Positions 20,901 to 63,039 of a stretch of DNA of 64,000 bases are shown in pieces (positions within the stretch are counted from its first letter, which is position 1; each line of letters opens with the position of its first letter). The DNA comes from Hydractinia symbiolongicarpus. Lineage: Eukaryota; Cnidaria; Hydrozoa; Anthoathecata; Hydractiniidae. Location of the stretch: contig NC_079877.1 in NCBI RefSeq assembly GCF_029227915.1, forward strand, positions 25,509,851 through 25,573,850, read 5' to 3'. Both the position numbers and the translations under genes were made by a program. Below the pieces are notes generated by a model. The model saw only the letters and a list, made by a program, of their open reading frames with translations, was not told where the DNA came from and ran no database searches.

Positions 20901-20941
20901 CTGAATATATCCAGAGTTTTGATATCATCGCTTCCGTTTAC
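17925..20941. other. Long non-coding stretch
   Basis: No recognised gene. It contains a direct repeat of ACTCATATCTTATATTCCAA near 18631 and 18657, a promoter-like spot at 19198-19233 and short AT-rich frames. A strong donor-like GTAAGTATT on the minus strand near 20475 has no open exon in front of it. Confidence 0.35.
19198..19233 (+). promoter_or_regulatory. Possible promoter: NRF-1-like palindrome plus TATA-like box
   Basis: CGCATGCGCA (19198-19207) is close to the NRF-1 consensus, and TATAAAA follows at 19227-19233. No convincing coding exon follows on the plus strand, so this is speculative. Confidence 0.25.
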
Positions 20942-20989
20942 CTTCTACATTCTCGTGGACACTCAGGCTATCGAATAGTGCAGATCGTT
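20942..20989 (-). CDS. Candidate 48-bp exon of the minus-strand array gene
   Basis: On the minus strand, TTTTATTCTTTTAG precedes and GTAAAC follows a 48-bp segment open only in phase 1 (RSALFDSLSVHENVE), the same phase and length as the array exons. It is a plausible downstream coding exon, but the exons between it and 23599 do not join unambiguously in frame. Confidence 0.35.
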
Positions 20990-23598: not shown

Positions 23599-23628
23599 TT
23601 TTCTTTTTTGAGCTCTTAATGCCAGAAT
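23599..23628 (-). CDS. Candidate 30-bp exon downstream of the array
   Basis: The minus strand shows TACTTATTTAG acceptor, 30 bp, and a strong GTGAGTATG donor. Length divisible by three, and phase 1 continues the array frame (A plus AT gives Asn), reading NSGIKSSKKK. Lys-rich. It is the best-supported exon left of the array. Confidence 0.5.
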
Positions 23629-24963: not shown

Positions 24964-27900
24964 TTTGCCTTGATGAAGCAGTGCCTTCCTGACCTATTGA
25001 CGGAGATGATGCTAGAATATAAAATAACTTTAATTAATTCCATTTTACCAAGGTGCTAGTGAGCAAAGTTCACTGGTGCACACATCTTCTTTCGAAAAAA
25101 AACACTTTCCTCCATATAAAAAGTTTGGTTTGACACATGAATATATTTAAAGTATGAAGAATTAAATTACGAAGGAAATTTGATCAACCGGAAATTGAAT
25201 TTCAATACTAAAAGCAGTTACAACTCCGTCCACTTGACGTTATGTTGTACCAAAACCTTAACCAACATTTTAAAGTGTTTTTCATAGCAACACTTGAATA
25301 TGCTAATAGAAATGTCACAAGGAGTCGCAAGAAAAAAACTAAAAAAAAAACTGAAGAAAGATAAACATTGGCAAGCAAATATTTTTGCAAACAAAGTTTT
25401 TGTTAGATTCGCATGTAAAAGATTTATAAACGCTCCAAATATAAAAATAGAGTACAAACAAGCTTTTGCCAATAATTTGTGGTCGCAAGAATTTTTAAGA
25501 TATTAAAGAAATTGGTGCTTATTCTAATTTTTGCATACAAAAAGGTACAGGTCGTTCTGTGAAAATACTGTTTCCTATTGTCTTGTGAAGATATTTTGCA
25601 TCGAATTCAAAATAATACGAAGAAGTACTGTTGAGAATATTACAAAAATTAAAGGGCTCATAATGTCATATTTTTGTTAACTCTGCGACAAATGCCACAT
25701 TGAAATTTAAACTAATTGATGCATCCACACATTTTCTAGTCTAATAAATATTTTGCACTCTTTTTGAAATTGCAAACAAATATATAAAAACAGTATTGAC
25801 AACTCACTTTGTCTTAATGAAGCAGTGCCTTCATGACCTATTGACGGAGATGATGCTAAAACATAAAATAACTTTAATTAATTCCATTGTACCAAGGTGC
25901 TAGTGAGCAAAGTTCACTGGTGTACACATATCTCCTTTTGAAATCAAACATTTTCCTCCATATAAAAAGTTTGGTTTGACACATGAATATATTTAAAGTA
26001 TGAAGAGTTAAATTACGAAAGAAATTTGATCAACCCTAACCCTAACCCTAACTCTAAACGCAGTTACAACTCCGTCCAAATGACGTTATGTTGTACCAAA
26101 ACCTTAACCAACATTTCAAAATGATTTTCATAGCAACTCTAGAATATGCTAATATAAATGTAAAAAGGAGCTGCAACAAAAAACTAAAGTATGGATATTG
26201 GAAGAAAACCTGAAGAGAGAAAAACATCGGCAAGCAAATATTTTTGTAAACTATGTTTTTGTTAATTTTTCATGTAAAAAATATGTGAACGCTCTTAATA
26301 CAAAACGTTAGTACAAACGAACTTTTGGAATCATTTGTCGTTGCTTAAATTTTTAGGATATTAAAGAAATTGGTACTTATTCTACTTTTTGCATACAAAG
26401 ATACAGGCTGTTCTGTGAAAATACTGTTTCCTATTGTCTTGTGAAGATATTTTGCATCAAATTCAAAATAATACGAAGAAGTACTGTTGAGAATATTTCA
26501 AAAATTAAAGGGCTCATAATCTCATATTTTTGTGAACTCTGCGACAAATGCCACATTGAAATTTAAACTAATTGATGCATCCACACATTTTCTAGTCTAA
26601 TAAATATTTTGCACTCTTTTTGAAATTGCAAACAAATATATAAAACAGTATTGACAACTCACTTTGTTTTGATGAAGCAGTGCCTTCATGACCTATTGAC
26701 GGAGTTGATGCTAAAATATAAAATAACTTTAATTAATTCCATTTTACCAAGGTGCTAGTGAGCAAAGTTCACTGGTGCACACATCTTCTTTCGAAAAAAA
26801 ACACTTTCCTCCATATAAAAAGTTTGGTTTGACACATGAATATATTTAAAGTATGAAGAATTAAATTACGAATGAAATTTGATCAACCGGAAATTGAATT
26901 TCAATACTAAAAGCAGTTACAACTCCGTCCACTTGACGTTATGTTGTACCAAAACCTTAACCAACATTTTAAAGTGTTTTTCATAGCAACACTTGAATAT
27001 GCTAATAGAAATGTCACAAGGAGTCGCAAGAAAAAAACTAAAAAAAAAACTGAAGAAAGATAAACATTGGCAAGCAAATATTTTTGCAAACAAAGTTTTT
27101 GTTAGATTCGCATGTAAAAGATTTATAAACGCTCCAAATATAAAAATAGAGTACAAACAAGCTTTTGCCAATAATTTGTGGTCGCAAGAATTTTTAAGAT
27201 ATTAAAGAAATTGGTGCTTATTCTAATTTTTGCATACAAAAAGGTACAGGTCGTTCTGTGAAAATACTGTTTCCTATTGTCTTGTGAAGATATTTTGCAT
27301 CGAATTCAAAATAATACGAAGAAGTACTGTTGAGAATATTTCAAAAATTAAAGGGCTCATAATCTCATATTTTTGTGAACTCTGCGACAAATGCCACATT
27401 GAAATTTAAAAGCAGTTACAACTCCGTCCAAATGACGTTATGTTGTACCAAAACCTTAACCAACATTTCAAAATGATTTTCATAGCAACTCTAGAATATG
27501 CTAATATAAATGTAAAAAGGAGCTGCAACAAAAAAACTAAAGTATGGATATTGGAAGAAAACCTGAAGAGAGAAAAACATCGGCAAGCAAATATTTTTGT
27601 AAACTATGTTTTTGTTAATTTTTCATGTAAAAAATATGTGAACGCTCTTAATACAAAACGTTAGTACAAACAAACTTTTGGAATCATTTGTCGTTGCTTA
27701 AATTTTTAGGATATTAAAGAAATTGGTACTTATTCTACTTTTTGCATACAAAGATACAGGCTGTTCTGTGAAAATACTGTTTCCTATTGTCTTGTGAAGA
27801 TATTTTGCATCGAATTCAAAATAATACGAAGAAGTACTGTTGAGAATATTTCAAAAATTAAAGGGCTCATAATGTCATATTTTTGTGAACTCTGCGACAA

Positions 27901-30900
27901 ATGCCACATTGAAATTTAAACTAATTGATGCATCCACACATTTTCTAGTCTAATAAATATTTTGTACTCTTTTTGAAATTGCAAACAAATATATAAAAAC
28001 AGTATTGACAACTCACTTTGTCTTAATGAAGCAGTGCCTTCATGACCTATTGACGGAGATGATGCTAAAATATAAAATAACTTTAATTAATTCCATTTTA
28101 CCAACGTGCTAGTGAGCAAAGTTCACTGGTGTACACATCTTCTTTCGAAAAAAAACACTTTCCTCCATATAAAAAGTTTGGTTTGACACATGAATATATT
28201 TAAAGTATCAAGAATTAAATTACGAAAGAAATTTGATCAACCCTAACCCTAACCCTTACTCTAAAAGCAGTTACAACTCCGTCCAAATGACGTTATGTTG
28301 TACCAAAACCTTAACCAACATTTCAAAATGATTTTCATAGCAACTCTAGAATATGCTAATATAAATGTAAAAAGGAGCTGCAACAAAAAAACTAAAGTAT
28401 GGATATTGGAAGAAAACCTGAAGAGAGAAAAACATCGGCAAGCAAATATTTTTGTAAACTATGTTTTTGTTAATTTTTCATGAAAAAAATATGTGAACGC
28501 TCTTAATACAAAACGTTAGTACAAACGAACTTTTGCGAATCATTTGTCGTTGCTTAAATTTTTAAGATATTAAAGAAATTGGTACTTATTCTACTTTTTG
28601 CATACAAAGATACAGGCTGTTCTGTGAAAATACTGTTTCCTATTGTCTTGTGAAGATATTTTGCATCGAATTCAAAATAATACGAAGAAGTACTGTTGAG
28701 AATATTTCAAAAATTAAAGGGCTCATAATGTCATATTTTTGTGAACTCTGCGACAAATGCCACATTGAAATTTAAACTAATTGATGCATCCACACATCTT
28801 CTAGTCTAATAAATATTTTGCACTCTTTTTGAAATTGTAAACAAATATATAAAAACAGTATTGACAACTCACTTTGTCTTAATGAAGCAGTGCCTTCATG
28901 ACCTATTGACGGAGATGATGCTAAAACATAAAATAACTTTAATTAATTCCATTGTACCAAGGTGCTAGTGAGCAAAGTTCACTGGTGTACACATATCTCC
29001 TTTTGAAATCAAACATTTTCCTCCATATAAAAAGTTTGGTTTGACACATGAATATATTTAAAGTATGAAGAGTTAAATTACGAAAGAAATTTGATCAACC
29101 CTAACCTTAACCCTAACTCTAAACGCAGTTACAACTCCGTCCAAATGACGTTATGTTGTACCAAAACCTTAACCAACATTTCAAAATGATTTTCATAGCA
29201 ACTCTAGAATATGCTAATATAAATGTAAAAAGGAGCTGCAACAAAAAAACTAAAGTATGGATATTGGAAGAAAACCTGAAGAGAGAAAAACATCGGCAAG
29301 CAAATATTTTTGTAAACTATGTTTTTGTTAATTTCATGTAAAAAATATGTGAACGCTCTTAATACAAAACGTTAGTACAAACGAACTTTTGCGAATCATT
29401 TGTCGTTGCTTAAATTTTTAAGATATTAAAGAAATTGGTACTTATTCTACTTTTTGCATACAAAGATACAGGCTGTTCTGTGAAAATACTGTTTCCTATT
29501 GTCTTGTGAAGATATTTTGCATCGAATTCAAAATAATACGAAGAAGTACTGTTGAGAATATTACAAAAATTAAAGGGCTCATAATGTCATATTTTTGTTA
29601 ACTCTGCGACAAATGCCACATTGAAATTTAAACTAATTGATGCATCCACACATTTTCTAGTCTAATAAATATTTTGCACTCTTTTTGAAATTGTAAACAA
29701 ATATATAAAAACAGTATTGACAACTCACTTTGTCTTAATGAAGCAGTGCCTTCATGACCTATTGACGGAGATGATGCTAAAACATAAAATAACTTTAATT
29801 AATTCCATTGTACCAAGGTGCTAGTGAGCAAAGTTCACTGGTGTACACATATCTCCTTTTGAAATCAAACATTTTCCTCCATATAAAAAGTTTGGTTTGA
29901 CACATGAATATATTTAAAGTATGAAGAATTAAATTACGAAGGAAATTTGATCAACCCTAACCCTAACTCTAAAAGCAGTTACAACTCCGTCCAAATGACG
30001 TTATGTTGTACCAAAACCTTAACCAACATTTCAAAATGATTTTCATAGCAACTCTAGAATATGCTAATATAAATGTAAAAAGGAGCTGCAACAAAAAACT
30101 AAAGTATGGATATTGGAAGAAAACCTGAAGAGAGAAAAACATCGGCAAGCAAATATTTTTGTAAACTATGTTTTTGTTAATTTCATGTAAAAAATATGTG
30201 AACGCTCTTAATACAAAACGTTAGTACAAACGAACTTTTGGAATCATTTGTCGTTGCTTAAATTTTTAGGATATTAAAGAAATTGGTACTTATTCTACTT
30301 TTTGCATACAAAGATACAGGCTGTTCTGTGAAAATACTGTTTCCTATTGTCTTGTGAAGATATTTTGCATCGAATTCAAAATAATACGAAGAAGTACTGT
30401 TGAGAATATTTCAAAAATTAAAGGGCTCATAATGTCATATTTTTGTGAACTCTGCGACAAATGCCACATTGAAATTTAAACTAATTGATGCATCCACACA
30501 TTTTCTAGTCTAATAAATATTTTGTACTCTTTTTGAAATTGCAAACAAATATATAAAAACAGTATTGACAACTCACTTTGTCTTAATGAAGCAGTGCCTT
30601 CATGACCTATTGACGGAGATGATGCTAAAATATAAAATAACTTTAATTAATTCCATTTTACCAACGTGCTAGTGAGCAAAGTTCACTGGTGTACACATCT
30701 TCTTTCGAAAAAAAACACTTTCCTCCATATAAAAAGTTTGGTTTGACACATGAATATATTTAAAGTATCAAGAATTAAATTACGAAAGAAATTTGATCAA
30801 CCCTAACCCTAACCCTTACTCTAAAAGCAGTTACAACTCCGTCCAAATGACGTTATGTTGTACCAAAACCTTAACCAACATTTCAAAATGATTTTCATAG

Positions 30901-33900
30901 CAACTCTAGAATATGCTAATATAAATGTAAAAAGGAGCTGCAACAAAAAAACTAAAGTATGGATATTGGAAGAAAACCTGAAGAGAGAAAAACATCGGCA
31001 AGCAAATATTTTTGTAAACTATGTTTTTGTTAATTTTTCATGAAAAAAATATGTGAACGCTCTTAATACAAAACGTTAGTACAAACGAACTTTTGCGAAT
31101 CATTTGTCGTTGCTTAAATTTTTAAGATATTAAAGAAATTGGTACTTATTCTACTTTTTGCATACAAAGATACAGGCTGTTCTATGAAAATACTGTTTCC
31201 TATTGTCTTGTGAAGATATTTTGCATCGAATTCAAAATAATATGAAGAAGTACTGTTGAGAATATTTCAAAAATTAAAGGGCTCATAATGTCATATTTTT
31301 GTGAACTCTGCGACAAATGCCACATTGAAATTTAAACTAATTGATGCATCCACACATTTTCTAGTCTAATAAATATTTTGCACTCTTTTTGAAATTGTAA
31401 ACAAATATATAAAAACAGTATTGACAACTCACTTTGTCTTAATGAAGCAGTGCCTTCATGACCTATTGACGGAGATGATGCTAAAACATAAAATAACTTT
31501 AATTAATTCCATTGTACCAAGGTGCTAGTGAGCAAAGTTCACTGGTGTACACATATCTCCTTTTGAAATCAAACATTTTCCTCCATATAAAAAGTTTGGT
31601 TTGACACATGAATATATTTAAAGTATGAAGAGTTAAATTACGAAAGAAATTTGATCAACCCTAACCCTAACCCTAACTCTAAACGCAGTTACAACTCCGT
31701 CCAAATGACGTTATGTTGTACCAAAACCTTAACCAACATTTCAAAATGATTTTCATAGCAACTCTAGAATATGCTAATATAAATGTAAAAAGGAGCTGCA
31801 ACAAAAAAACTAAAGTATGGATATTGGAAGAAAACCTGAAGAGGGAAAAACATCGGCAAGCAAATATTTTTGTAAACTATGTTTTTGTTAATTTCATGTA
31901 AAAAATATGTGAACGCTCTTAATACAAAACGTTAGTACAAACGAACTTTTGCGAATCATTTGTCGTTGCTTAAATTTTTAAGATATTAAAGAAATTGGTA
32001 CTTATTCTACTTTTTGCATACAAAGATACAGGCTGTTCTGTGAAAATACTGTTTCCTATTGTCTTGTGAAGATATTTTGCATCGAATTCAAAATAATACG
32101 AAGAAGTACTGTTGAGAATATTACAAAAATTAAAGGGCTCATAATGTCATATTTTTGTTAACTCTGCGACAAATGCCACATTGAAATTTAAACTAATTGA
32201 TGCATCCACACATTTTCTAGTCTAATAAATATTTTGCACTCTTTTTGAAATTGTAAACAAATATATAAAAACAGTATTGACAACTCACTTTGTCTTAATG
32301 AAGCAGTGCCTTCATGACCTATTGACGGAGATGATGCTAAAACATAAAATAACTTTAATTAATTCCATTGTACCAAGGTGCTAGTGAGCAAAGTTCACTG
32401 GTGTACACATATCTCCTTTTGAAATCAAACATTTTCCTCCATATAAAAAGTTTGGTTTGACACATGAATATATTTAAAGTATGAAGAATTAAATTATGAA
32501 GGAAATTTGATCAACTCTAACCCTAACTCTAAAAGCAGTTACAACTCCGTCCAAATGACGTTATGTTGTACCAAAACCTTAACCAACATTTCAAAATGAT
32601 TTTCATAGCAACTCTAGAATATGCTAATATAAATGTAAAAAGGAGCTGCAACAAAAAAACTAAAGTATGGATATTGGAAGAAAACCTGAAGAGAGAAAAA
32701 CATCGGCAAGCAAATATTTTTTTAAACTATGTTTTTGTTAATTTTTCATGTAAAAAATATGTGAACGCTCTTAATACAAAACGTTAGTACAAACGAACTT
32801 TTGCGAATCATTTGTCGTTGCTTAAATTTTTAAGATATTAAAGAAATTGGTACTTATTGTACTTTTTGCATACAAAGATACAGGCTGTTCTGTGAAAATA
32901 CTGTTTCCTATTGTCTTGTGAAGATATTTTGCATCGAATTCAAAATAATACGAAGAAGTACTGTTGAGAATATTTCAAAAATTAAAGGGCTCATAATGTC
33001 ATATTTTTGTGAACTCTGCGCCAAATGCCACATTGAAATTTAAACTAATTGATGCATCCACACATTTTCTAGTCTAATAAATATTTTGTACTCTTTTTGA
33101 AATTGCAAACAAATATATAAAAACAGTATTGACAACTCACTTTGTCTTAATGAAGCAGTGCCTTCATGACCTATTGACGGAGATGATGCTAAAATATAAA
33201 ATAACTTTAATTAATTCCATTTTACCAACGTGCTAGTGAGCAAAGTTCACTGGTGTACACATCTTCTTTCGAAAAAAAACACTTTCCTCCATATAAAAAG
33301 TTTGGTTTGACACATGAATATATTTAAAGTATCAAGAATTAAATTACGAAAGAAATTTGATCAACCCTAACCCTAACCCTTACTCTAAAAGCAGTTACAA
33401 CTCCGTCCAAATGACGTTATGTTGTACCAAAACCTTAACCAACATTTCAAAATGATTTTCATAGCAACTCTAGAATATGCTAATATAAATGTAAAAAGGA
33501 GCTGCAACAAAAAAACTAAAGTATGGATATTGGAAGAAAACCTGAAGAGAGAAAAACATCGGCAAGCAAATATTTTTGTAAACTATGTTTTTGTTAATTT
33601 TTCATGTAAAAAATATGTGAACGCTCTTAATACAAAACGTTAGTACAAACGAACTTTTGCGAATCATTTGTCGTTGCTTAAATTTTTAAGATATTAAAGA
33701 AATTGGTACTTATTCTACTTTTTGCATACAAAGATACAGGCTGTTCTATGAAAATACTGTTTCCTATTGTCTTGTGAAGATATTTTGCATCGAATTCAAA
33801 ATAATATGAAGAAGTACTGTTGAGAATATTTCAAAAATTAAAGGGCTCATAATGTCATATTTTTGTGAACTCTGCGACAAATGCCACATTGAAATTTAAA

Positions 33901-36900
33901 CTAATTGATGCATCCACACATTTTCTAGTCTAATAAATATTTTGCACTCTTTTTGAAATTGTAAACAAATATATAAAAACAGTATTGACAACTCACTTTG
34001 TCTTAATGAAGCAGTGCCTTCATGACCTATTGACGGAGATGATGCTAAAACATAAAATAACTTTAATTAATTCCATTGTACCAAGGTGCTAGTGAGCAAA
34101 GTTCACTGGTGTACACATATCTCCTTTTGAAATCAAACATTTTCCTCCATATAAAAAGTTTGGTTTGACACATGAATATATTTAAAGTATGAAGAGTTAA
34201 ATTACGAAAGAAATTTGATCAACCCTAACCCTAACCCTAACTCTAAACGCAGTTACAACTCCGTCCAAATGACGTTATGTTGTACCAAAACCTTAACCAA
34301 CATTTCAAAATGATTTTCATAGCAACTCTAGAATATGCTAATATAAATGTAAAAAGGAGCTGCAACAAAAAAACTAAAGTATGGATATTGGAAGAAAACC
34401 TGAAGAGAGAAAAACATCGGCAAGCAAATATTTTTGTAAACTATGTTTTTGTTAATTTCATGTAAAAAATATGTGAACGCTCTTAATACAAAACGTTAGT
34501 ACAAACGAACTTTTGCGAATCATTTGTCGTTGCTTAAATTTTTAAGATATTAAAGAAATTGGTACTTATTCTACTTTTTGCATACAAAGATACAGGCTGT
34601 TCTGTGAAAATACTGTTTCCTATTGTCTTGTGAAGATATTTTGCATCGAATTCAAAATAATACGAAGAAGTACTGTTGAGAATATTACAAAAATTAAAGG
34701 GCTCATAATGTCATATTTTTGTTAACTCTGCGACAAATGCCACATTGAAATTTAAACTAATTGATGCATCCACACATTTTCTAGTCTAATAAATATTTTG
34801 CACTCTTTTTGAAATTGTAAACAAATATATAAAAACAGTATTGACAACTCACTTTGTCTTAATGAAGCAGTGCCTTCATGACCTATTGACGGAGATGATG
34901 CTAAAACATAAAATAACTTTAATTAATTCCATTGTACCAAGGTGCTAGTGAGCAAAGTTCACTGGTGTACACATATCTCCTTTTGAAATCAAACATTTTC
35001 CTCCATATAAAAAGTTTGGTTTGACATAGAATATATTTAAAGTATGAAGAATTAAATTACGAAGGAAATTTGATCAACCCTAACCCTAACTCTAAAAGCA
35101 GTTACAACTCCGTCCAAATGACGTTATGTTGTACCAAAACCTTAACCAACATTTCAAAATGATTTTCATAGCAACTCTAGAATATGCTAATATAAATGTA
35201 AAAAGGAGCTGCAACAAAAAAACTAAAGTATGGATATTGGAAGAAAACCTGAAGAGAGAAAAACATCGGCAAGCAAATATTTTTGTAAACTATGTTTTTG
35301 TTAATTTTTCATGTAAAAAATATGTGAACGCTCTTAATACAAAACGTTAGTACAAACGAACTTTTGCGAATCATTTGTCGTTGCTTAAATTTTTAAGATA
35401 TTAAAGAAATTGGTACTTATTCTACTTTTTGCATACAAAGATACAGGCTGTTCTATGAAAATACTGTTTCCTATTGTCTTGTGAAGATATTTTGCATCGA
35501 ATTCAAAATAATATGAAGAAGTACTGTTGAGAATATTTCAAAAATTAAAGGGCTCATAATGTCATATTTTTGTGAACTCTGCGACAAATGCCACATTGAA
35601 ATTTAAACTAATTGATGCATCCACACATTTTCTAGTCTAATAAATATTTTGCACTCTTTTTGAAATTGTAAACAAATATATAAAAACAGTATTGACAACT
35701 CACTTTGTCTTAATGAAGCAGTGCCTTCATGACCTATTGACGGAGATGATGCTAAAACATAAAATAACTTTAATTAATTCCATTGTACCAAGGTGCTAGT
35801 GAGCAAAGTTCACTGGTGTACACATATCTCCTTTTGAAATCAAACATTTTCCTCCATATAAAAAGTTTGGTTTGACACATGAATATATTTAAAGTATGAA
35901 GAGTTAAATTACGAAAGAAATTTGATCAACCCTAACCCTAACCCTAACTCTAAACGCAGTTACAACTCCGTCCAAATGACGTTATGTTGTACCAAAACCT
36001 TAACCAACATTTCAAAATGATTTTCATAGCAACTCTAGAATATGCTAATATAAATGTAAAAAGGAGCTGCAACAAAAAAACTAAAGTATGGATATTGGAA
36101 GAAAACCTGAAGAGAGAAAAACATCGGCAAGCAAATATTTTTGTAAACTATGTTTTTGTTAATTTCATGTAAAAAATATGTGAACGCTCTTAATACAAAA
36201 CGTTAGTACAAACGAACTTTTGCGAATCATTTGTCGTTGCTTAAATTTTTAAGATATTAAAGAAATTGGTACTTATTCTACTTTTTGCATACAAAGATAC
36301 AGGCTGTTCTGTGAAAATACTGTTTCCTATTGTCTTGTGAAGATATTTTGCATCGAATTCAAAATAATACGAAGAAGTACTGTTGAGAATATTACAAAAA
36401 TTAAAGGGCTCATAATGTCATATTTTTGTTAACTCTGCGACAAATGCCACATTGAAATTTAAACTAATTGATGCATCCACACATTTTCTAGTCTAATAAA
36501 TATTTTGCACTCTTTTTGAAATTGTAAACAAATATATAAAAACAGTATTGACAACTCACTTTGTCTTAATGAAGCAGTGCCTTCATGACCTATTGACGGA
36601 GATGATGCTAAAACATAAAATAACTTTAATTAATTCCATTGTACCAAGGTGCTAGTGAGCAAAGTTCACTGGTGTACACATATCTCCTTTTGAAATCAAA
36701 CATTTTCCTCCATATAAAAAGTTTGGTTTGACATAGAATATATTTAAAGTATGAAGAATTAAATTACGAAGGAAATTTGATCAACCCTAACCCTAACTCT
36801 AAAAGCAGTTACAACTCCGTCCAAATGACGTTATGTTGTACCAAAACCTTAACCAACATTTCAAAATGATTTTCATAGCAACTCTAGAATATGCTAATAT

Positions 36901-39900
36901 AAATGTAAAAAGGAGCTGCAACAAAAAAACTAAAGTATGGATATTGGAAGAAAACCTGAAGAGAGAAAAACATCGGCAAGCAAATATTTTTGTAAACTAT
37001 GTTTTTGCTAATTTTTCATGTAAAAAATATGTGAACGCTCTTAATAAAAAACGTTAGTACAAACGAACTTTTGCGAATCATTTGTCGTTGCTTAAATTTT
37101 TAAGATATTAAAGAAATTGGTACTTATTGTACTTTTTGCATACAAAGATACAGGCTGTTCTGTGAAAATACTGTTTCCTATTGTCTTGTGAAGATATTTT
37201 GCATCGAATTCAAAATAATACGAAGAAGTACTGTTGAGAATATTTCAAAAATTAAAGGGCTCATAATGTCATATTTTTGTGAACCCTGCGACAAATGCCA
37301 CATTGAAATTTAAACTAATTGATGCATCCACACATTTTCTAGTCTAATAAATATTTTGCACTCTTTTTGAAATTGTAAACAAATATATAAAAACAGTATT
37401 GACAACTCACTTTGTCTTAATGAAGCAGTGCCTTCATGACCTATTGACGGAGATGATGCTAAAACATAAAATAACTTTAATTAATTCCATTGTACCAAGG
37501 TGCTAGTGAGCAAAGTTCACTGGTGTACACATATCTCCTTTTGAAATCAAACATTTTCCTCCATATAAAAAGTTTAGTTTGACACATGAATATATTTAAA
37601 GTATGAAGAGTTAAATTACGAAAGAAATTTGATCAACCCTAACCCTAACCCTAACTCTAAACGCAGTTACAACTCCGTCCAAATGACGTTATGTTGTACC
37701 AAAACCTTAACCAACATTTCAAAATGATTTTCATAGCAACTCTAGAATATGCTAATATAAATGTAAAAAGGAGCTGCAACAAAAAAACTAAAGTATGGAT
37801 ATTGGAAGAAAACCTGAAGAGGGAAAAACATCGGCAAGCAAATATTTTTGTAAACTATGTTTTTGTTAATTTCATGTAAAAAATATGTGAACGCTCTTAA
37901 TACAAAACGTTAGTACAAACGAACTTTTGCGAATCATTTGTCGTTGCTTAAATTTTTAAGATATTAAAGAAATTGGTACTTATTCTACTTTTTGCATACA
38001 AAGATACAGGCTGTTCTGTGAAAATACTGTTTCCTATTGTCTTGTGAAGATATTTTGCATCGAATTCAAAATAATACGAAGAAGTACTGTTGAGAATATT
38101 ACAAAAATTAAAGGGCTCATAATGTCATATTTTTGTTAACTCTGCGACAAATGCCACATTGAAATTTAAACTAATTGATGCATCCACACATTTTCTAGTC
38201 TAATAAATATTTTGCACTCTTTTTGAAATTGTAAACAAATATAATAAAAACAGTATTGACAACTCACTTTGTCTTAATGAAGCAGTGCCTTCATGACCTA
38301 TTGACGGAGATGATGCTAAAACATAAAATAACTTTAATTAATTCCATTGTACCAAGGTGCTAGTGAGCAAAGTTCACTGGTGTACACATATCTCCTTTTG
38401 AAATCAAACATTTTCCTCCATATAAAAAGTTTGGTTTAACATAGAATATATTTAAAGTATGAAGAATTAAATTACGAAGGAAATTTGATCAACCCTAACC
38501 CGAACTCTAAAAGCAGTTACAACTCCGTCCAAATGACGTTATGTTGTACCAAAACCTTAACCAACATTTCAAAATGATTTTCATAGCAACTCTAGAATAT
38601 GCTACTATAAATGTAAAAAGGAGCTGCAACAAAAAAACTAAAGTATGGATATTGGAAGAAAACCTGAAGAGAGAAAAACATCGGCAAGCAAATATTTTTG
38701 TAAACTATGTTTTTGCTAATTTTTCATGTAAAAAATATGTGAACGCTCTTAATAAAAAACGTTAGTACAAACGAACTTTTGCGAATCATTTGTCGTTGCT
38801 TAAATTTTTAAGATATTAAAGAAATTGGTACTTATTGTACTTTTTGCATACAAAGATACAGGCTGTTCTGTGAAAATACTGTTTCCTATTGTCTTGTGAA
38901 GATATTTTGCATCGAATTCAAAATAATACGAAGAAGTACTGTTGAGAATATTACAAAAATTAAAGGGCTCATAATGTCATATTTTTGTTAACTCTGCGAC
39001 AAATGCCACATTGAAATTTAAACTAATTGATGCATCCACACATTTTCTAGTCTAATAAATATTTTGCACTCTTTTTGAAATTGTAAACAAATATAATAAA
39101 AACAGTATTGACAACTCACTTTGTCTTAATGAAGCAGTGCCTTCATGACCTATTGACGGAGATGATGCTAAAACATAAAATAACTTTAATTAATTCCATT
39201 GTACCAAGGTGCTAGTGAGCAAAGTTCACTGGTGTACACATATCTCCTTTTGAAATCAAACATTTTCCTCCATATAAAAAGTTTGGTTTAACATAGAATA
39301 TATTTAAAGTATGAAGAATTAAATTACGAAGGAAATTTGATCAACCCTAACCCGAACTCTAAAAGCAGTTACAACTCCGTCCAAATGACGTTATGTTGTA
39401 CCAAAACCTTAACCAACATTTCAAAATGATTTTCATAGCAACTCTAGAATATGCTACTATAAATGTAAAAAGGAGCTGCAACAAAAAAACTAAAGTATGG
39501 ATATTGGAAGAAAACCTGAAGAGAGAAAAACATCGGCAAGCAAATATTTTTGTAAACTATGTTTTTGCTAATTTTTCATGTAAAAAATATGTGAACGCTC
39601 TTAATAAAAAACGTTAGTACAAACGAACTTTTGCGAATCATTTGTCGTTGCTTAAATTTTTAAGATATTAAAGAAATTGGTACTTATTGTACTTTTTGCA
39701 TACAAAGATACAGGCTGTTCTGTGAAAATACTGTTTCCTATTGTCTTGTGAAGATATTTTGCATCGAATTCAAAATAATACGAAGAAGTACTGTTGAGAA
39801 TATTTCAAAAATTAAAGGGCTCATAATGTCATATTTTTGTGAACCCTGCGACAAATGCCACATTGAAATTTAAACTAATTGATGCATCCACACATTTTCT

Positions 39901-42900
39901 AGTCTAATAAATATTTTGCACTCTTTTTGAAATTGTAAACAAATATATAAAAACAGTATTGACAACTCACTTTGTCTTAATGAAGCAGTGCCTTCATGAC
40001 CTATTGACGGAGATGATGCTAAAACATAAAATAACTTTAATTAATTCCATTGTACCAAGGTGCTAGTGAGCAAAGTTCACTGGTGTACACATATCTCCTT
40101 TTGAAATCAAACATTTTCCTCCATATAAAAAGTTTAGTTTGACACATGAATATATTTAAAGTATGAAGAGTTAAATTACGAAAGAAATTTGATCAACCCT
40201 AACCCTAACCCTAACTCTAAACGCAGTTACAACTCCGTCCAAATGACGTTATGTTGTACCAAAACCTTAACCAACATTTCAAAATGATTTTCATAGCAAC
40301 TCTAGAATATGCTAATATAAATGTAAAAAGGAGCTGCAACAAAAAAACTAAAGTATGGATATTGGAAGAAAACCTGAAGAGGGAAAAACATCGGCAAGCA
40401 AATATTTTTGTAAACTATGTTTTTGTTAATTTCATGTAAAAAATATGTGAACGCTCTTAATACAAAACGTTAGTACAAACGAACTTTTGCGAATCATTTG
40501 TCGTTGCTTAAATTTTTAAGATATTAAAGAAATTGGTACTTATTCTACTTTTTGCATACAAAGATACAGGCTGTTCTGTGAAAATACTGTTTCCTATTGT
40601 CTTGTGAAGATATTTTGCATCGAATTCAAAATAATACGAAGAAGTACTGTTGAGAATATTACAAAAATTAAAGGGCTCATAATGTCATATTTTTGTTAAC
40701 TCTGCGACAAATGCCACATTGAAATTTAAACTAATTGATGCATCCACACATTTTCTAGTCTAATAAATATTTTGCACTCTTTTTGAAATTGTAAACAAAT
40801 ATAATAAAAACAGTATTGACAACTCACTTTGTCTTAATGAAGCAGTGCCTTCATGACCTATTGACGGAGATGATGCTAAAACATAAAATAACTTTAATTA
40901 ATTCCATTGTACCAAGGTGCTAGTGAGCAAAGTTCACTGGTGTACACATATCTCCTTTTGAAATCAAACATTTTCCTCCATATAAAAAGTTTGGTTTAAC
41001 ATAGAATATATTTAAAGTATGAAGAATTAAATTACGAAGGAAATTTGATCAACCCTAACCCGAACTCTAAAAGCAGTTACAACTCCGTCCAAATGACGTT
41101 ATGTTGTACCAAAACCTTAACCAACATTTCAAAATGATTTTCATAGCAACTCTAGAATATGCTACTATAAATGTAAAAAGGAGCTGCAACAAAAAAACTA
41201 AAGTATGGATATTGGAAGAAAACCTGAAGAGAGAAAAACATCGGCAAGCAAATATTTTTGTAAACTATGTTTTTGCTAATTTTTCATGTAAAAAATATGT
41301 GAACGCTCTTAATAAAAAACGTTAGTACAAACGAACTTTTGCGAATCATTTGTCGTTGCTTAAATTTTTAAGATATTAAAGAAATTGGTACTTATTGTAC
41401 TTTTTGCATACAAAGATACAGGCTGTTCTGTGAAAATACTGTTTCCTATTGTCTTGTGAAGATATTTTGCATCGAATTCAAAATAATACGAAGAAGTACT
41501 GTTGAGAATATTACAAAAATTAAAGGGCTCATAATGTCATATTTTTGTTAACTCTGCGACAAATGCCACATTGAAATTTAAACTAATTGATGCATCCACA
41601 CATTTTCTAGTCTAATAAATATTTTGCACTCTTTTTGAAATTGTAAACAAATATAATAAAAACAGTATTGACAACTCACTTTGTCTTAATGAAGCAGTGC
41701 CTTCATGACCTATTGACGGAGATGATGCTAAAACATAAAATAACTTTAATTAATTCCATTGTACCAAGGTGCTAGTGAGCAAAGTTCACTGGTGTACACA
41801 TATCTCCTTTTGAAATCAAACATTTTCCTCCATATAAAAAGTTTGGTTTAACATAGAATATATTTAAAGTATGAAGAATTAAATTACGAAGGAAATTTGA
41901 TCAACCCTAACCCGAACTCTAAAAGCAGTTACAACTCCGTCCAAATGACGTTATGTTGTACCAAAACCTTAACCAACATTTCAAAATGATTTTCATAGCA
42001 ACTCTAGAATATGCTACTATAAATGTAAAAAGGAGCTGCAACAAAAAAACTAAAGTATGGATATTGGAAGAAAACCTGAAGAGAGAAAAACATCGGCAAG
42101 CAAATATTTTTGTAAACTATGTTTTTGCTAATTTTTCATGTAAAAAATATGTGAACGCTCTTAATAAAAAACGTTAGTACAAACGAACTTTTGCGAATCA
42201 TTTGTCGTTGCTTAAATTTTTAAGATATTAAAGAAATTGGTACTTATTGTACTTTTTGCATACAAAGATACAGGCTGTTCTGTGAAAATACTGTTTCCTA
42301 TTGTCTTGTGAAGATATTTTGCATCGAATTCAAAATAATACGAAGAAGTACTGTTGAGAATATTTCAAAAATTAAAGGGCTCATAATGTCATATTTTTGT
42401 GAACCCTGCGACAAATGCCACATTGAAATTTAAACTAATTGATGCATCCACACATTTTCTAGTCTAATAAATATTTTGCACTCTTTTTGAAATTGTAAAC
42501 AAATATATAAAAACAGTATTGACAACTCACTTTGTCTTAATGAAGCAGTGCCTTCATGACCTATTGACGGAGATGATGCTAAAACATAAAATAACTTTAA
42601 TTAATTCCATTGTACCAAGGTGCTAGTGAGCAAAGTTCACTGGTGTACACATATCTCCTTTTGAAATCAAACATTTTCCTCCATATAAAAAGTTTGGTTT
42701 GACACATGAATATATTTAAAGTATGAAGAGTTAAATTACGAAAGAAATTTGATCAACCCTAACCCTAACCCTAACTCTAAACGCAGTTACAACTCCGTCC
42801 AAATGACGTTATGTTGTACCAAAACCTTAACCAACATTTCAAAATGATTTTCATAGCAACTCTAGAATATGCTAGTATAAATGTAAAAAGGAGCTGCAAC

Positions 42901-45900
42901 AAAAAAACTAAAGTATGGATATTGGAAGAAAACCTGAAGAGGGAAAAACATCGGCAAGCAAATATTTTTGTAAACTATGTTTTTGTTAATTTCATGTAAA
43001 AAATATGTGAACGCTCTTAATACAAAACGTTAGTACAAACGAACTTTTGCGAATCATTTGTCGTTGCTTAAATTTTTAAGATATTAAAGAAATTGGTACT
43101 TATTCTACTTTTTGCATACAAAGATACAGGCTGTTCTGTGAAAATACTGTTTCCTATTGTCTTGTGAAGATATTTTGCATCGAATTCAAAATAATACGAA
43201 GAAGTACTGTTGAGAATATTACAAAAATTAAAGGGCTCATAATGTCATATTTTTGTTAACTCTGCGACAAATGCCACATTGAAATTTAAACTAATTGATG
43301 CATCCACACATTTTCTAGTCTAATAAATATTTTGCACTCTTTTTGAAATTGTAAACAAATATATAAAAACAGTATTGACAACTCACTTTGTCTTAATGAA
43401 GCAGTGCCTTCATGACCTATTGACGGAGATGATGCTAAAACATAAAATAACTTTAATTAATTCTATTGTACCAAGGTGCTAGTGAGCAAAGTTCACTGGT
43501 GTACACATATCTCCTTTTGAAATCAAACATTTTCCTCCATATAAAAAGTTTGGTTTGACATAGAATATATTTAAAGTATGAAGAATTAAATTACGAAGGA
43601 AATTTGATCAACCCTAACCCTAACTCTAAAAGCAGTTACAACTCCGTCCAAATGACGTTATGTTGTACCAAAACCTTAACCAACATTTCAAAATGATTTT
43701 CATAGCAACTCTAGAATATGCTAATATAAATGTAAAAAGGAGCTGCAACAAAAAAACTAAAGTATGGATATTGGAAGAAAACCTGAAGAGAGAAAAACAT
43801 CGGCAAGCAAATATTTTTGTAAACTATGTTTTTGCTAATTTTTCATGTAAAAAATATGTGAACGCTCTTAATAAAAAACGTTAGTACAAACGAACTTTTG
43901 CGAATCATTTGTCGTTGCTTAAATTTTTAAGATATTAAAGAAATTGGTACTTATTGTACTTTTTGCATACAAAGATACAGGCTGTTCTGTGAAAATACTG
44001 TTTCCTATTGTCTTGTGAAGATATTTTGCATCGAATTCAAAATAATACGAAGAAGTACTGTTGAGAATATTTCAAAAATTAAAGGGCTCATAATGTCATA
44101 TTTTTGTGAACCCTGCGACAAATGCCACATTGAAATTTAAACTAATTGATGCATCCACACATTTTCTAGTCTAATAAATATTTTGCACTCTTTTTGAAAT
44201 TGTAAACAAATATATAAAACAGTATTGACAACTCACTTTGTTTTGATGAAGCAGTGCCTTCATGACCTATTGACGGAGTTGATGCTAAAATATAAAATAA
44301 CTTTAATTAATTCCATTTTACCAAGGTGCTAGTGAGCAAAGTTCACTGGTGCACACATCTTCTTTCGAAAAAAAACACTTTCCTCCATATAAAAAGTTTG
44401 GTTTGACACATGAATATATTTAAAGTATGAAGAGTTAAATTACGAAAGAAATTTGATCAACCCTAACCCTAACCCTAACTCTAAACGCAGTTACAACTCC
44501 GTCCAAATGACGTTATGTTGTACCAAAACCTTAACCAACATTTTAAAATGATTTCCATAGCAACTCTAGAATATGCTAATATAAATGTAAAAAGGAGTTG
44601 CAACAAAAAAACTGAAGTATGGATATTGGAAGAAAACCTGAAGAGAGAAAAACATCGGCAAGCAAATATTTTTGTAAACTATGTTTTTGTTAATTTTTCA
44701 TGTAAAAAATATGTGAACGCTCTAAATACAAAACGTTAGTACAAACGAACTTTTGCGAATCATTTGTCGTTGCTTAAATTTTTAAGATATTAAAGAAATT
44801 GGTACTTATTCTACTTTTTGCATACAAAGATACAGGCTGTTCTGTGAAAATACTGTTTCCTATTGTCTTGTGAAGATATTTTGCATCGAATTTAAAATAA
44901 TACGAAGAAGTACTGTTGAGAATATTACAAAAATTAAAGGGCTCATAATGTCATATTTTTGTTAACTCTGCGACAAATGCCACATTGAAATTTAAACTAA
45001 TTGATGCATCCACACATTTTCTAGTCTAATAAATATTTTGCACTCTTTTTGAAATTGTAAACAAATATATAAAAACAGTATTGACAACTCACTTTGTCTT
45101 AATGAAGCAGGGCCTTCATGACCTATTGACGGAGATGATGCTAAAACATAAAATAACTTTAATTAATTCCATTGTACCAAGGTGCTAGTGAGCAAAGTTC
45201 ACTGGTGTACACATATCTCCTTTTGAAATCAAACATTTTCCTCCATATAAAAAGTTTGGTTTGACATAGAATATATTTAAAGTATGAAGAATTAAATTAC
45301 GAAGGAAATTTGATCAACCCTAACCCTAACTCTAAAAGCAGTTACAACTCCGTCCAAATGACGTTATGTTGTACCAAAACCTTAACCAACATTTCAAAAT
45401 GATTTTCATAGCAACTCTAGAATATGCTAATATAAATGTAAAAAGGAGCTGCAACAAAAAAACTAAAGTATGGATATTGGAAGAAAACCTGAAGAGAGAA
45501 AAACATCGGCAAGCAAATATTTTTGTAAACTATGTTTTTGCTAATTTTTCATGTAAAAAATATGTGAACGCTCTTAATAAAAAACGTTAGTACAAACGAA
45601 CTTTTGCGAATCATTTGTCGTTGCTTAAATTTTTAAGATATTAAAGAAATTGGTATTTATTGTACTTTTTGCATACAAAGATACAGGCTGTTCTGTGAAA
45701 ATACTGTTTCCTATTGTCTTGTGAAGATATTTTGCATCGAATTCAAAATAATACGAAGAAGTACTGTTGAGAATATTTCAAAAATTAAAGGGCTCATAAT
45801 GTCATATTTTTGTGAACCCTGCGACAAATGCCACATTGAAATTTAAACTAATTGATGCATCCACACATTTTCTAGTCTAATAAATATTTTGCACTCTTTT

Positions 45901-48563
45901 TGAAATTGTAAACAAATATATAAAAACAGTATTGACAACTCACTTTGTCTTAATGAAGCAGTGCCTTCATGACCTATTGACGGAGATGATGCTAAAACAT
46001 AAAATAACTTTAATTAATTCCATTGTACCAAGGTGCTAGTGAGCAAAGTTCACTGGTGTACACATATCTCCTTTTGAAATCAAACATTTTCCTCCATATA
46101 AAAAGTTTGGTTTGACACATGAATATATTTAAAGTATGAAGAGTTAAATTACGAAAGAAATTTGATCAACCCTAACCCTAACCCTAACTCTAAACGCAGT
46201 TACAACTCCGTCCAAATGACGTTATGTTGTACCAAAACCTTAACCAACATTTCAAAATGATTTTCATAGCAACTCTAGAATATGCTAATATAAATGTAAA
46301 AAGGAGCTGCAACAAAAAAACTAAAGTATGGATATTGGAAGAAAACCTGAAGAGAGAAAAACATCGGCAAGCAAATATTTTTGTAAACTATGTTTTTGCT
46401 AATTTTTCATGTAAAAAATATGTGAACGCTCTTAATAAAAAACGTTAGTACAAACGAACTTTTGCGAATCATTTGTCGTTGCTTAAATTTTTAAGATATT
46501 AAAGAAATTGGTACTTATTGTACTTTTTGCATACAAAGATACAGGCTGTTCTGTGAAAATACTGTTTCCTATTGTCTTGTGAAGATATTTTGCATCGAAT
46601 TCAAAATAATACGAAGAAGTACTGTTGAGAATATTTCAAAAATTAAAGGGCTCATAATGTCATATTTTTGTGAACCCTGCGACAAATGCCACATTGAAAT
46701 TTAAACTAATTGATGCATCCACACATTTTCTAGTCTAATAAATATTTTGCACTCTTTTTGAAATTGTAAACAAATATATAAAAACAGTATTGACAACTCA
46801 CTTTGTCTTAATGAAGCAGTGCCTTCATGACCTATTGACGGAGATGATGCTAAAACATAAAATAACTTTAATTAATTCCATTGTACCAAGGTGCTAGTGA
46901 GCAAAGTTCACTGGTGTACACATATCTCCTTTTGAAATCAAACATTTTCCTCCATATAAAAAGTTTGGTTTGACACATGAATATATTTAAAGTATGAAGA
47001 GTTAAATTACGAAAGAAATTTGATCAACCCTAACCCTAACCCTAACTCTAAACGCAGTTACAACTCCGTCCAAATGACGTTATGTTGTACCAAAACCTTA
47101 ACCAACATTTCAAAATAATTTTCATAGCAACTCTAGAATATGCTAATATAAATGTAAAAAGGAGCTGCAACAAAAAAACTAAAGTATGGATATTGGAAGA
47201 AAACCTGAAGAGGGAAAAACATCGGCAAGCAAATATTTTTGTAAACTATGTTTTTGTTAATTTCATGTAAAAAATATGTGAACGCTCTTAATACAAAACG
47301 TTAGTACAAACGAACTTTTGCGAATCATTTGTCGTTGCTTAAATTTTTAAGATAGTAAAGAAATTGGTACTTATTCTACTTTTTGCATACAAAGATACAG
47401 GCTGTTCTGTGAAAATACTGTTTCCTATTGTCTTGTGAAGATATTTTGCATCGAATTCAAAATAATACGAAGAAGTACTGTTGAGAATATTTCAAAAATT
47501 AAAGGGCTCATAATGTCATATTTTTGTGAACTCTGCGACAAATGCCACATTGAAATTTAAACTAATTGATGCATCCACACATTTTCTAGTCTAATAAATA
47601 TTTTGCACTCTTTTTGAAATTGTAAACAAATATATAAAAACAGTATTGACAACTCACTTTGTCTTAATGAAGCAGTGCCTTCATGACCTATTGACGAAGA
47701 TGATGCTAAAACATAAAATAACTTTAATTAATTCCATTGTACCAAGGTGCTAGTGAGCAAAGTTCACTGGTGTACACATATCTCCTTTTGAAATCAAACA
47801 TTTTCCTCCATATAAAAAGTTTGGTTTGACACATGAATATATTTAAAGTATGAAGAGTTAAATTACGAAAGAAATTTGATCAACCCTAACCCTAACCCTA
47901 ACTCTAAACGCAGTTACAACTCCGTCCAAATGACGTTATGTTGTACCAAAACCTTAACCAACATTTTAAAATGATTTCCATAGCAACTCTAGAATATGCT
48001 AATATAAATGTAAAAAGGAGTTGCAACAAAAAAACTGAAGTATGGATATTGGAAGAAAACCTGAAGAGAGAAAAACATCGTCAAGCAAATATTTTTGTAA
48101 ACTATGTTTTTGTTAATTTTTCATGTAAAAAATATGTGAACGCTCTAAATACAAAACGTTAGTACAAACGAACTTTTGCGAATCATTTGTCGTTGCTTAA
48201 ATTTTTAAGATATTAAAGAAATTGGTACTTATTCTACTTTTTGCATACAAAGATACAGGCTGTTCTGTGAAAATACTGTTTCCTATTGTCTTGTGAAGAT
48301 ATTTTGCATCGAATTTAAAATAATACGAAGAAGTACTGTTGAGAATATTACAAAAATTAAAGGGCTCATAATGTCATATTTTTGTTAACTCTGCGACAAA
48401 TGCCACATTGAAATTTAAACTAATTGATGCATCCACACATTTTCTAGTCTAATAAATATTTTGCACTCTTTTTGAAATTGTAAACAAATATATAAAAACA
48501 GTATTGACAACTCACTTTGTCTTAATGAAGTAGTGCCTTCATGACCTATTGACGGAGTTGATG
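24964..48563 (-). CDS. Array of 28 tandem 48-bp exons encoding a 16-residue Ser/Thr-rich repeat
   Basis: Each exon lies between a TATTTTAG/TGTTTTAG acceptor and a GTGAGT donor (minus strand). Low coordinates are 24964, 25808, 26663, 28017, 28873, 29729, 30577, 31433, 32289, 33141, 33997, 34853, 35704, 36560, 37411, 38268, 39120, 39971, 40828, 41680, 42531, 43387, 44237, 45093, 45944, 46802, 47658 and 48516; each is 48 bp. Phases 0 and 2 hit stops (TAG, TGA); phase 1 is open and joins copy to copy as TSSPSIGHEGTASLRQ. No copy has an indel or stop. Variants include STPSIGHEGTASSKQ (26663, 44237), SSPSIGQEGTASSRQ (24964), GHEGPASLRQ (45093), SSSSIG (47658) and GTTSLRQ (48516). The product would be a long, flexible, probably heavily phosphorylated or glycosylated repeat tract. 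No family recognised; transcription is inferred, not shown. Confidence 0.65.
26034..26052 (+). repeat. Telomere-like CCCTAA block within a unit (type example)
   Basis: Three CCCTAA copies sit between GATCAA and CTCTAAACGCAG. Equivalent blocks of one to three copies occur in nearly all interior units, for example at about 28244, 31669, 34223, 37637, 42757 and 47889. Some units carry decayed forms (CCCGAAC near 38500). The block is intronic relative to the minus-strand exon. Confidence 0.9.
27400..27420. repeat. Out-of-phase unit junction
   Basis: GAAATTTAAA (normally followed by CTAATTGATG) joins AGCAGTTACA (normally preceded by CTCTAAA), deleting about 500 bp including one exon. The shared bases TAAA point to microhomology-mediated joining. 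Confidence 0.85.
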
Positions 48564-49340
48564 CTAAAATATAAAATAACTTTAATTAATTCAATTGTAC
48601 CAAGGTGCTAGTGAGCAAAGTTCACTGGTATACACATATCTCCTTTTGAAATCAAACATTTTCCTCCATATAAAAAGTTTGGTTTGACACATGATTATAT
48701 TTAAAGTATGAAGAATTAAATTACGAAGGAAAATTGATCAACCGGAAATTGAATTGCAATGCTAAAAGCAGCTACAACTCCGTCCAAATGACGTTGTTGT
48801 ACCATAACCTTAACCAACATTTTAAAGTGATATTCATAGCAACACTTGAATATGCTAATATAAATGTCACAAAGAGTTGCAACAAAACAACTAAAGTATG
48901 GATATAACAAAAAAACATGAAGAGAGAAAAACATCGGTAAGCAAATATTTAAACTATGTTTTTGTTAATTTTGCATGTAAAAAATTTGTGAACGGTCTAA
49001 ATATAAAACGTTAGTACAAACGAACTTTTGTGAATAATTTGTGGTTGGCAAAATGTTAAAGATAGTAAAGAAATTAGTACTTATTCTACTTTTTGCGTAC
49101 AAACGCACAAGTGGTTCTGTGAAAATATGTTTCATAAAGTCTTGTGAAGTTATTTTACCTCCATTTTAAAAAGTACAAAGATGTACTTTTAGGAATAAAT
49201 AAAAAATTAAAGCGCTCATAAAGTCATATTTTTGTGAACTCCTCAACACATCCAAGATTGAAATTTAAACTAATTGATGCATCCACACAATTACTGATTT
49301 AATAAATAATTTGCACTCCTTTTGCAATCGCTAACAATTA

Positions 49341-49820
49341 CAGTGGACTCTATAAATTGAACTCCTATAACTCGAATCTCTCCTTAACTCGAACGTCGCA
49401 CGAAGTTCAGAAAGCTATAAGTATTCTTGCATATTTTAGGCTCTTTTCAAATTTCAGGGAGGCAATGATGAGATAACTAAAGGACTTAAATAAAACTGTT
49501 GAAAAGATGTCCTTCATACAAGAAAGCAAACTCTAATTTCGGATTTCTTTTCTTCCCAAGAATAAATCGTTGAGATAAAATATTTTGTATTTTTTATTTT
49601 TTCAGCCTGTTCTTAGCCTACGAGGTCGAGATTTTATCCTACACAACGAAAGATTTTGTCCCCATTCCATATAAGGGAGAAAATTCGCGTTTAATTGGCT
49701 ATTTATACAAAATTTATACAAAAACTTGGAAAAACTCCAAACTCTCTATTACCAGAACCTTTCTATAACTTGAATGGCTTCCGATTCCCCATGGCTGCTC
49801 GAATTATAGAGAGTCCACTG
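49341..49820. mobile_element. pogo/Tc1-type MITE inserted in the array
   Basis: CAGTGGACTCTATAAATTGA at the left versus CAGTGGACTCTCTATAATTC as reverse complement of the right end, flanked by TA on both sides (49339-49340, 49821-49822). 480 bp, no transposase. Subterminal CTCGAA/TTCGAG motifs recur. It interrupts a diverged array unit whose exon resumes at 49849. Confidence 0.85.
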
Positions 49821-49848
49821 TATATAAAAAACAGTATTGGCAACTTAC

Positions 49849-49896
49849 TTTGCCTCGATGAAGCACTGGCTTCGTGACCTATTGACAGAGATGATG
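49849..49896 (-). CDS. Diverged array exon, still intact
   Basis: 48 bp with the acceptor TATCTTTAG and donor GTAAGT (changed from GTGAGT yet still good). Phase 1 reads SSLSIGHEASASSRQ. It differs from the consensus at several bases without an indel, while the neighbouring non-exonic sequence has lost hundreds of bases, which suggests the exon has been kept by selection. Confidence 0.6.
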
Positions 49897-50298
49897 CTAA
49901 AGATATAAAATAATTTTAATTAAAATGTGAAGAGAGATAAATGTTGGCTAGCAAATATTTTTACAATGTTTTTGTTAATTTTGCATGTAAATTATTTGTG
50001 AACGACCTAAATATAAAACTTTAATACAAACAAACTTTTCTGTTTGTTTTGTAAAAATGTACCACTCCTTCAGTAAAAATATTGTTTCCTGATGTCTTGC
50101 TCATGTATTCTGCCTCTATTTCGAAAACTTTCAAAGGCATGTGAGAATGAATAAAATTAAATATTAAAGAAAAGGTGCTTATACACTCATATTTTCGTGA
50201 ATTCATCCAAATACGTTAAGTTGAAATTTAACCTCAGGGAGGCATTAATATAATCACCAATGTAAGCAATATAAGAAACAGTATTGAACTATACTCAC
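49897..50298. repeat. Decayed array unit (intronic part)
   Basis: Recognisable unit phrases (GAGAGATAAATGTTGGCTAG, GCATGTAAATTATTTGTGAA) with large deletions. Confidence 0.7.
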
Positions 50299-50355
50299 CT
50301 TGAGTCAGAGAATGAGTACTCGATAGAATGGGTTGGTGAAGCCACATTGGTGATG
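50299..50355 (-). CDS. Most 5' and most diverged array-type exon (57 bp)
   Basis: Lies at the exon position of a decayed unit (AACAGTATTGAACTATACTCAC precedes it on the plus strand). It has a TATTTTTAG acceptor and GTGAGT donor. 57 bp keeps the phase; phase 1 reads SPMWLHQPILSSTHSLTQ, but phase 2 is open too, so the reading depends on the upstream exon. Confidence 0.5.
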
Positions 50356-50545
50356 CTAAAAATACAAAATAAACTTAATTTGTTATAAATTGTCAGGGTG
50401 TTGATAAAAAAAGCTTACTAAGGCACATAACATTTTTGCCAATTGTTATATATTCCTTAACAACACATAGAATTCCCAGGCATCACAAAGAGATTTGTAT
50501 GGTACGAATTGTATATTTGTATTATATAATTGCACAGAGTCAGAT

Positions 50546-50739
50546 TTAAACCAAATCCAATTTCTCTACTAAGTGCACTATCAGACCATGATGTAACACT
50601 AGTCCACTAGTCTTGCTTTGTCTAAATGTGATTTCATTTACAGATAAGCAATCAGAGTTGCCCGCAGTGAAATTACTAACAGTCTCAATCATCTCCTCAA
50701 CACTTTCAGTATCACACAACAAAAGTTCTCTTCGCGGTA
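50546..50739 (-). CDS. Candidate coding exon of the array gene, possibly an alternative terminal exon
   Basis: A TTTACTTTTCAAG acceptor ends at 50740. Phase 1 (G from the microexon plus TA gives Val) opens a 64-residue reading from VPRRELLLCDTESVEEMIET through SNFTAGNSDCLS to a TAA at 50546. Acidic, two Cys, one N-glycosylation-type NFT. If it runs to the stop it would end the protein before the array; alternatively a GTAATT donor about 67 nt in (phase 1) would give a short internal exon that joins onward. Neither a poly(A) signal nor a strong donor decides. Confidence 0.45.
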
Positions 50740-51891: not shown

Positions 51892-51915
51892 CTTGATCAT
51901 TCGCTGGAGGCATAG
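51892..51915 (-). CDS. 24-bp microexon of the array gene
   Basis: On the minus strand, CTTTTTTATAG precedes and GTATGT follows a 24-bp segment that reads MPPANDQ with phase 1 on both sides (G plus CT gives Ala). Splice signals and phase agree with exon 57945-58196 upstream and the array exons downstream. Its brevity keeps confidence moderate. Confidence 0.5.
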
Positions 51916-63029: not shown

Positions 63030-63039
63030 GTTTCAATTC

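Follow-up and report, generated by a model that had tools for sequence, protein, structure and literature searches.

Whether a tandem array that resembles a satellite can be part of a protein-coding gene is the question raised by a locus of the hydrozoan Hydractinia symbiolongicarpus. The window, i.e. the whole stretch of 64,000 nucleotides analysed, corresponds to C3:25509851-25573850, and its own coordinates are used below unless a C1, C4 or C6 prefix is given; C3 and C4 presumably correspond to chromosomes 3 and 4 of the species. Between 24964 and 49896, its minus strand carries an array of 29 micro-exons of 48 bp coding for a TSSPSIGHEGTASLRQ repeat, in exon-intron units of about 855 bp. 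The array is flanked on both sides by predicted exons of one gene, with exons conserved in a C4 paralog upstream and a terminal exon downstream. Judged from the sequence, the array is intragenic and most likely coding, and we consider it very probable that the locus is one protein-coding gene in which each unit of an intragenic exon-intron array would bring a 16-residue repeat into the spliced product.

Each tandem unit contains a complete exon plus intron, both splice sites being present in 29/29 of the 48-bp copies. The bases before the exon are TTAG in 28 copies and CTAG in one, and those after it GTGAGT in 28 and GTAAGT in one. Phase 1 is open in all 29 copies, the other two frames being stop-bearing in 29 and 27 of them. 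A sequence-only reading of this DNA had described just this, 29 minus-strand segments with acceptor, donor and a stop-free phase 1, and this description is confirmed. Identity to the consensus is complete in 22/29 copies; the length of 48 bp is a multiple of three with phase 1-1, and fits the joint 889-aa frame presented below. Copies are spaced by 844-858 bp, with exceptions of 1333 and 1354 bp and a shorter first interval of 459 bp. The latter begins with x12 (50299-50355, minus strand as are all exons below), a diverged first array exon of 57 bp and phase 1-1, with splice scores of 9.73 and 11.08 bits; its intron differs from the array consensus at 139 of 424 aligned positions. The scoring model was trained on 10 C3 exons of the gene, whose acceptors range from 4.1 to 11.4 bits.

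When exon x10 (57945-58196; 252 bp, phase 1-1) was searched against the genome at the protein level, 12 matches were obtained. Besides the exon itself, they comprise a full-length relative on C4, 40% identical, and 10 incomplete copies on C1. Comparison of C3 with C4 exposed the upstream gene, in which twelve exons, x1 to x12, join in one frame. Exons x1, x3-x6, x8-x10 and the terminal exon are conserved in C4, in the same gene order, and over eight exons the differences fall 104/81/155 at codon positions 1/2/3. Exons x1-x6 fall outside the window (64757-71564 when its numbering is extended), and a further C4-similar exon is found near 74040-74160, so the gene start is not reached. Within the window, x7 (62986-63038; 53 bp, phase 1 to 0, ELKHGDRQHRSLGSDFKE) joins x6 and x8 in one frame, and no convincing match to it was found in the C4 comparison. 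It is followed by x8 (61650-61718; 69 bp, phase 0-0, LLTPRSKEAYRILSPSQRIVFKK), with 11/23 residues identical to the C4 exon 12516709-12516777, and by x9 (61497-61539; 43 bp, phase 0-1, GYQACHRKLFPQSE), with 11/14 residues identical to C4 and 7/11 differences at codon position 3. The last pre-array exon conserved in C4 is x10 (33/82 aligned residues identical to C4:12518865-12519113). Next comes a predicted exon x11 (51892-51915; 24 bp, phase 1-1, MPPANDQ), with splice scores of 5.95 and 9.83 bits and an open frame, for which no counterpart was found in the C4 comparisons.

The upstream exon set proposed earlier thus stands in part. The segments 62986-63038, 61497-61539 and 57945-58196 are retained as exons. 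The first is read in a different frame and links x6 to x8, and its use as a start exon was rejected; for 61497-61539 the frame first proposed was also abandoned, since it is the other frame, read as GYQACHRKLFPQSE, that shows the synonymous pattern against C4. Exon 61650-61718 had been missed. The candidate 60055-60184 is probably not an exon: its acceptor scores -5.3 bits, a C4 counterpart was not found and, being 130 bp long, it would introduce a frame shift between 61497-61539 and 57945-58196. The N-terminal region, put at about 164 aa in that proposal, would measure at least 367 aa because the gene begins beyond the window.

On the other side of the array, the gene would close with two exons; its end at 20925 had escaped the sequence-only reading. 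A predicted penultimate exon of 30 bp (23599-23628; phase 1-1, NSGIKSSKKK, splice scores 7.23 and 7.63 bits) precedes a terminal coding exon (20925-20989), which encodes RSALFDSLSVHENVEGKRKR followed by a stop. Of the 57 x 84 pairs of candidate terminal exons compared between C3 and C4 in 8-kb regions, the highest-scoring one includes this terminal exon, whose C4 partner, at C4:12557992, encodes SVILFDSLSANERVEGKRKRK then a stop and lies downstream of the C4 array. As the pair was picked from 22250 raw C3/C4 comparison rows, 200 first-order Markov simulations served as its control: it scores 69, and the null maxima have a mean of 31.9 (standard deviation 3.2) and a highest value of 43. The next two pairs score 51, which also exceeds the null; both involve one C3 stretch and seem to reflect a shared repeat. 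In both genes, the terminal exon has a small basic exon before it (23599-23628 here, a 21-bp exon at 12556775 in C4). When 43 exons are joined across 42 junctions, a single frame stays open for 889 aa and terminates precisely at the stop of 20925-20989, and the other two frames of this join stop at residues 2 and 10. According to the proposed model, the gene would begin at least 10 kb outside the window and run along the minus strand as far as 20925, and two basic exons (SSKKKKR...KRKR, then the stop) would close the protein.

The C4 paralog provides a second array in the equivalent place. Between its x10 and terminal exon are 11 micro-exons of 39-42 bp, all of phase 1-1, retained from 17 candidates after six poor ones (16-17 mismatches, without splice sites) had been dropped. 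The units are mostly of about 2.85 kb with three micro-exons (39, 42 and 42 bp), with the last micro-exon set 7 kb beyond the rest. The encoded repeats are ISVVSPKRTKTT, VSLTSPKTVESKS and ILPTSPKTVATKS, whose S-P-x-K/R motifs we take to resemble proline-directed kinase sites. Joined to x8-x10 and the C-terminal exons, these micro-exons leave a frame open for 298 aa to its stop. DNA similarity between the C3 and C4 arrays is not significant (best expectation value, E, 0.033). Two of the C4 exons, b and c, differ at 13/42 positions, seven of them at codon position 3, and five successive codons (TSPKTV region) have changed only synonymously; their 200-bp flanks are 35% and 28% identical in ungapped comparison. 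It is hard to see why two paralogs should hold micro-exon arrays that are dissimilar yet share slot and phase, unless these exons are spliced into the product. Together with the C4 gene order and the shared terminal exon, the same-slot array supports the earlier proposal of a gene with about 30 tandem micro-exons of phase 1-1. A broader idea, to which we give an even chance, is that in this hydrozoan gene family new arrays of coding exons arise again and again at a fixed slot and in a fixed phase, with a different micro-exon amplified as an exon-intron satellite in each paralog; the length of the tail and its number of S-P-type motifs would then form an evolvable, individually variable dial.

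Several observations weigh against a coding array. Exons x2, x7, x11 and x12 are without clear C4 counterpart, and the exon letters of x12 hardly align with the other array exons. In C4, the similarity of b and c stops upstream of the exon and extends about 22 bp past the donor, and their acceptors are low (2.3 and 2.6 bits; small splice model). Moreover, a possible alternative terminal exon (PRRELLLCDTESVEEM...LDLV, then a stop) is located before the array at 50544-50739. The main transcript might end there, leaving the array downstream and untranscribed, or confined to a minor isoform. Its open frame of 63 codons, in phase with x11 and with a stop at its end, speaks for such an ending, which we nevertheless regard as quite improbable in view of the conserved terminal exon found beyond the array in both paralogs, the weak 50739 acceptor (2.84 bits) and the lack of a convincing match in the 40-kb C4 region.

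Further points of this kind concern the array itself. The real unit offers to the splice model a single sense-strand candidate micro-exon, the 48-mer, and zero on the other strand. Among 2000 dinucleotide-preserving shuffled units, with both strands counted and thresholds set 1 bit below the real site scores, 241 hold at least one comparable micro-exon. Changes among the 29 copies amount to 10 distinct nonsynonymous, 3 synonymous and 0 stop, to be compared with 94:39:11 possible single changes; segregating sites number 6 in the 48-bp exon and 3.3 per 48 bp in introns. (In comparing units the first two were left out; 27 were used, 25 for site counts.) Variation among array copies is thus about as expected without selection, and the comparison of substitution types advocated by the sequence-only reading makes no purifying selection visible. 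Copy 49849, which had been presented as conserved against decayed flanks, fares no better than its intron, with 7/48 exon positions and 101/802 aligned intron positions off consensus, and the notion that its conservation points to selection was rejected. As a micro-exon in one satellite unit appears automatically in all copies, and as the copies look neutral and shuffles produce micro-exons by chance, the array by itself is no proof of coding.

These data bear directly on another explanation, namely that the array lies within the gene as an intronic satellite, of which few or none of the 48-bp segments would be retained, the mature mRNA joining x10-x12 to the C-terminal exons. Array copies without purifying selection, the occurrence of a comparable micro-exon in 12% of shuffled units and the common phase 1, owing to which skipping keeps the frame, would all agree with it. 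It accounts less well for the retention of both splice sites in every copy, and for the fact that the dissimilar C4 array also holds micro-exons of phase 1 and of a length divisible by three, two of them with the five-codon synonymous run. We judge it unlikely, although it is the least improbable of the alternatives considered here.

The locus could also be a decaying pseudogene. This would be in line with the neutral look of the array exons and with the partial copies on C1, but 889 codons open over 42 junctions and the excess of differences at codon position 3 against the C4 paralog make it the least credible explanation, with a very small probability. The C1 copies of x10 are found from about 25.07 to 31.05 Mb, and 4/10 contain a stop; for the 31.05 Mb copy, in the one region compared, the flanking intron sequence matches too. 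Chromosome 1 is described as the likely sex chromosome in the available portion of PMC10411563.

If, as we favour, the array exons are coding, how would the array evolve? The consecutive units 42578, 41727 and 40875 are repeated without a difference by the three that follow, and differences between units are minimal at a lag of three units (27 units). The 1354-bp interval 28064-26710 (minus strand) consists of a full unit plus a partial unit of about 499 bp without exon (499 extra alignment columns), and is likely the product of unequal or illegitimate exchange. The identical three-unit blocks, the lag-three minimum and this recombinant-looking partial unit are marks of unequal exchange, which would spread array copies and keep them alike. 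Since the array exons are a multiple of three in length and of phase 1-1, copies can be gained, lost or skipped with the frame intact, and each exon-intron unit would add one 16-residue Ser/Thr-rich repeat. The array exons would be spliced in and their copy number would vary; the length of the protein would probably change through repeat gain or loss, and a hypervariable copy number is plausible.

In the other long interval, of 1333 bp, the intron that follows copy 49849 holds a 480-bp insertion (49341-49820, minus strand). Its ends resemble inverted repeats (CAGTGGACTCT...), and it is probably a small DNA transposon. A telomere-like TTAGGG motif occurs in one to three repeats at one spot of the intron in 25/29 array intervals (25000-49900, minus strand); the intervals without it are two at the upstream edge, the last and the recombinant one. 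Elsewhere in the window, outside 24901-50400, TTAGGGTTAGGG is absent from both strands.

Genome-wide, an 81-bp exon-plus-flank query gave at least 30 matches, 29 in the array and one on C6. A widely dispersed satellite was considered and rejected: with an 810-bp intron query, matches were confined to C6 and a diverged edge of the array, because very common words are skipped in the DNA search, and the counts for both queries are lower bounds. The C6 match (C6:13168766-13169380; L009:8767-9381) is a lone decayed array unit far from the gene, about 72-76% identical over the longest matches, whose acceptor AG, judged by eye, is lost.

The sequence-only reading knew of no described gene of this kind, but the kind is already known from two precedents, SmPoMuc (PMC2576457) and LPA KIV-2 (PMC11201333). 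With this class the present array shares a complete exon per unit, an equal-phase exon of a length divisible by three, predicted flanking exons on both sides and homogenised units. In the available text on SmPoMuc of Schistosoma mansoni, tandem intragenic units of about 1 kb each contain one 27-bp exon, intron identity is over 94%, repeat number differs between individuals, and unequal crossing-over and gene conversion are discussed (PMC2576457). One short exon per unit and a highly conserved intron are thus common to both systems. As far as that text goes, SmPoMuc are flatworm mucins in which the repeat is exon 2, near the 5′ end, with at most about 20 genomic copies; the gene described here is cnidarian, with a 48-bp exon in 29 copies near the 3′ end, a basic C-terminus and a paralog whose array in that slot is dissimilar, and in these respects the two differ. 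Human LPA KIV-2 is, in the sections available, an exon-intron coding variable number tandem repeat (VNTR), whose intragenic units likewise alter protein length (PMC11201333); its unit of about 5.6 kb has two exons (160 and 182 bp) and encodes a kringle domain, in contrast to one 48-bp exon and a short Ser/Thr-rich repeat here. Schistosome micro-exon genes, according to the accessible part of PMC10526429, resemble our gene by very short and repeated exons with long introns between them, but encode secreted proteins, whereas here one homogenised array lies within a gene with longer ordinary exons. Among the top-ranked results from open-licence literature, no cnidarian exon-intron coding array turned up. 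What is new here is the phylum, together with the 29 copies in one assembly and the occurrence, at one slot, of dissimilar arrays in two paralogs. The published cases of exon-intron coding VNTRs (LPA, SmPoMuc) are of medical interest and relevant to host-parasite biology. With two dissimilar same-slot arrays, a tractable cnidarian would allow direct tests of how coding exon arrays are born, homogenised and changed in length, and this may also be a gene hidden by annotation and repeat masking.

As for the product, protein-database searches returned zero of 1241 candidates at E <= 10 for the N-terminal part, and zero at E <= 0.001 among 8000 candidates scored for the repeat plus C-terminus. Pfam gave 0 families at E <= 1 for the 354-aa non-repeat part and for the 251-aa C4 part; for the alternative stop exon 50544-50739 only GP57 appeared, below cut-off (E 0.082), and a sequence search of PDB gave a single match (E 0.19). 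The ordinary exons would encode at least 367 residues of a family without relative found outside this genome. From the predicted sequence we infer that the protein is lineage-specific and carries a tail of Ser/Thr-rich repeats. This tail would be disordered and the product nuclear; the basic C-terminus may send it to the nucleus.

Other features of the window lie outside the predicted exons. On the plus strand, open frames at 10236-11885 and 14640-15449 show sub-threshold matches to ISL3-type transposase and to the MSL2 CXC domain, and probably represent a mobile element. Another plus-strand open frame, at 4925-5482, has a GIY-YIG domain and is presumably Penelope-like. Finally, an exon-like open stretch with a stop at its end (55411-55540, minus strand) contains a GLYKDDG motif, which to us recalls reverse transcriptases.

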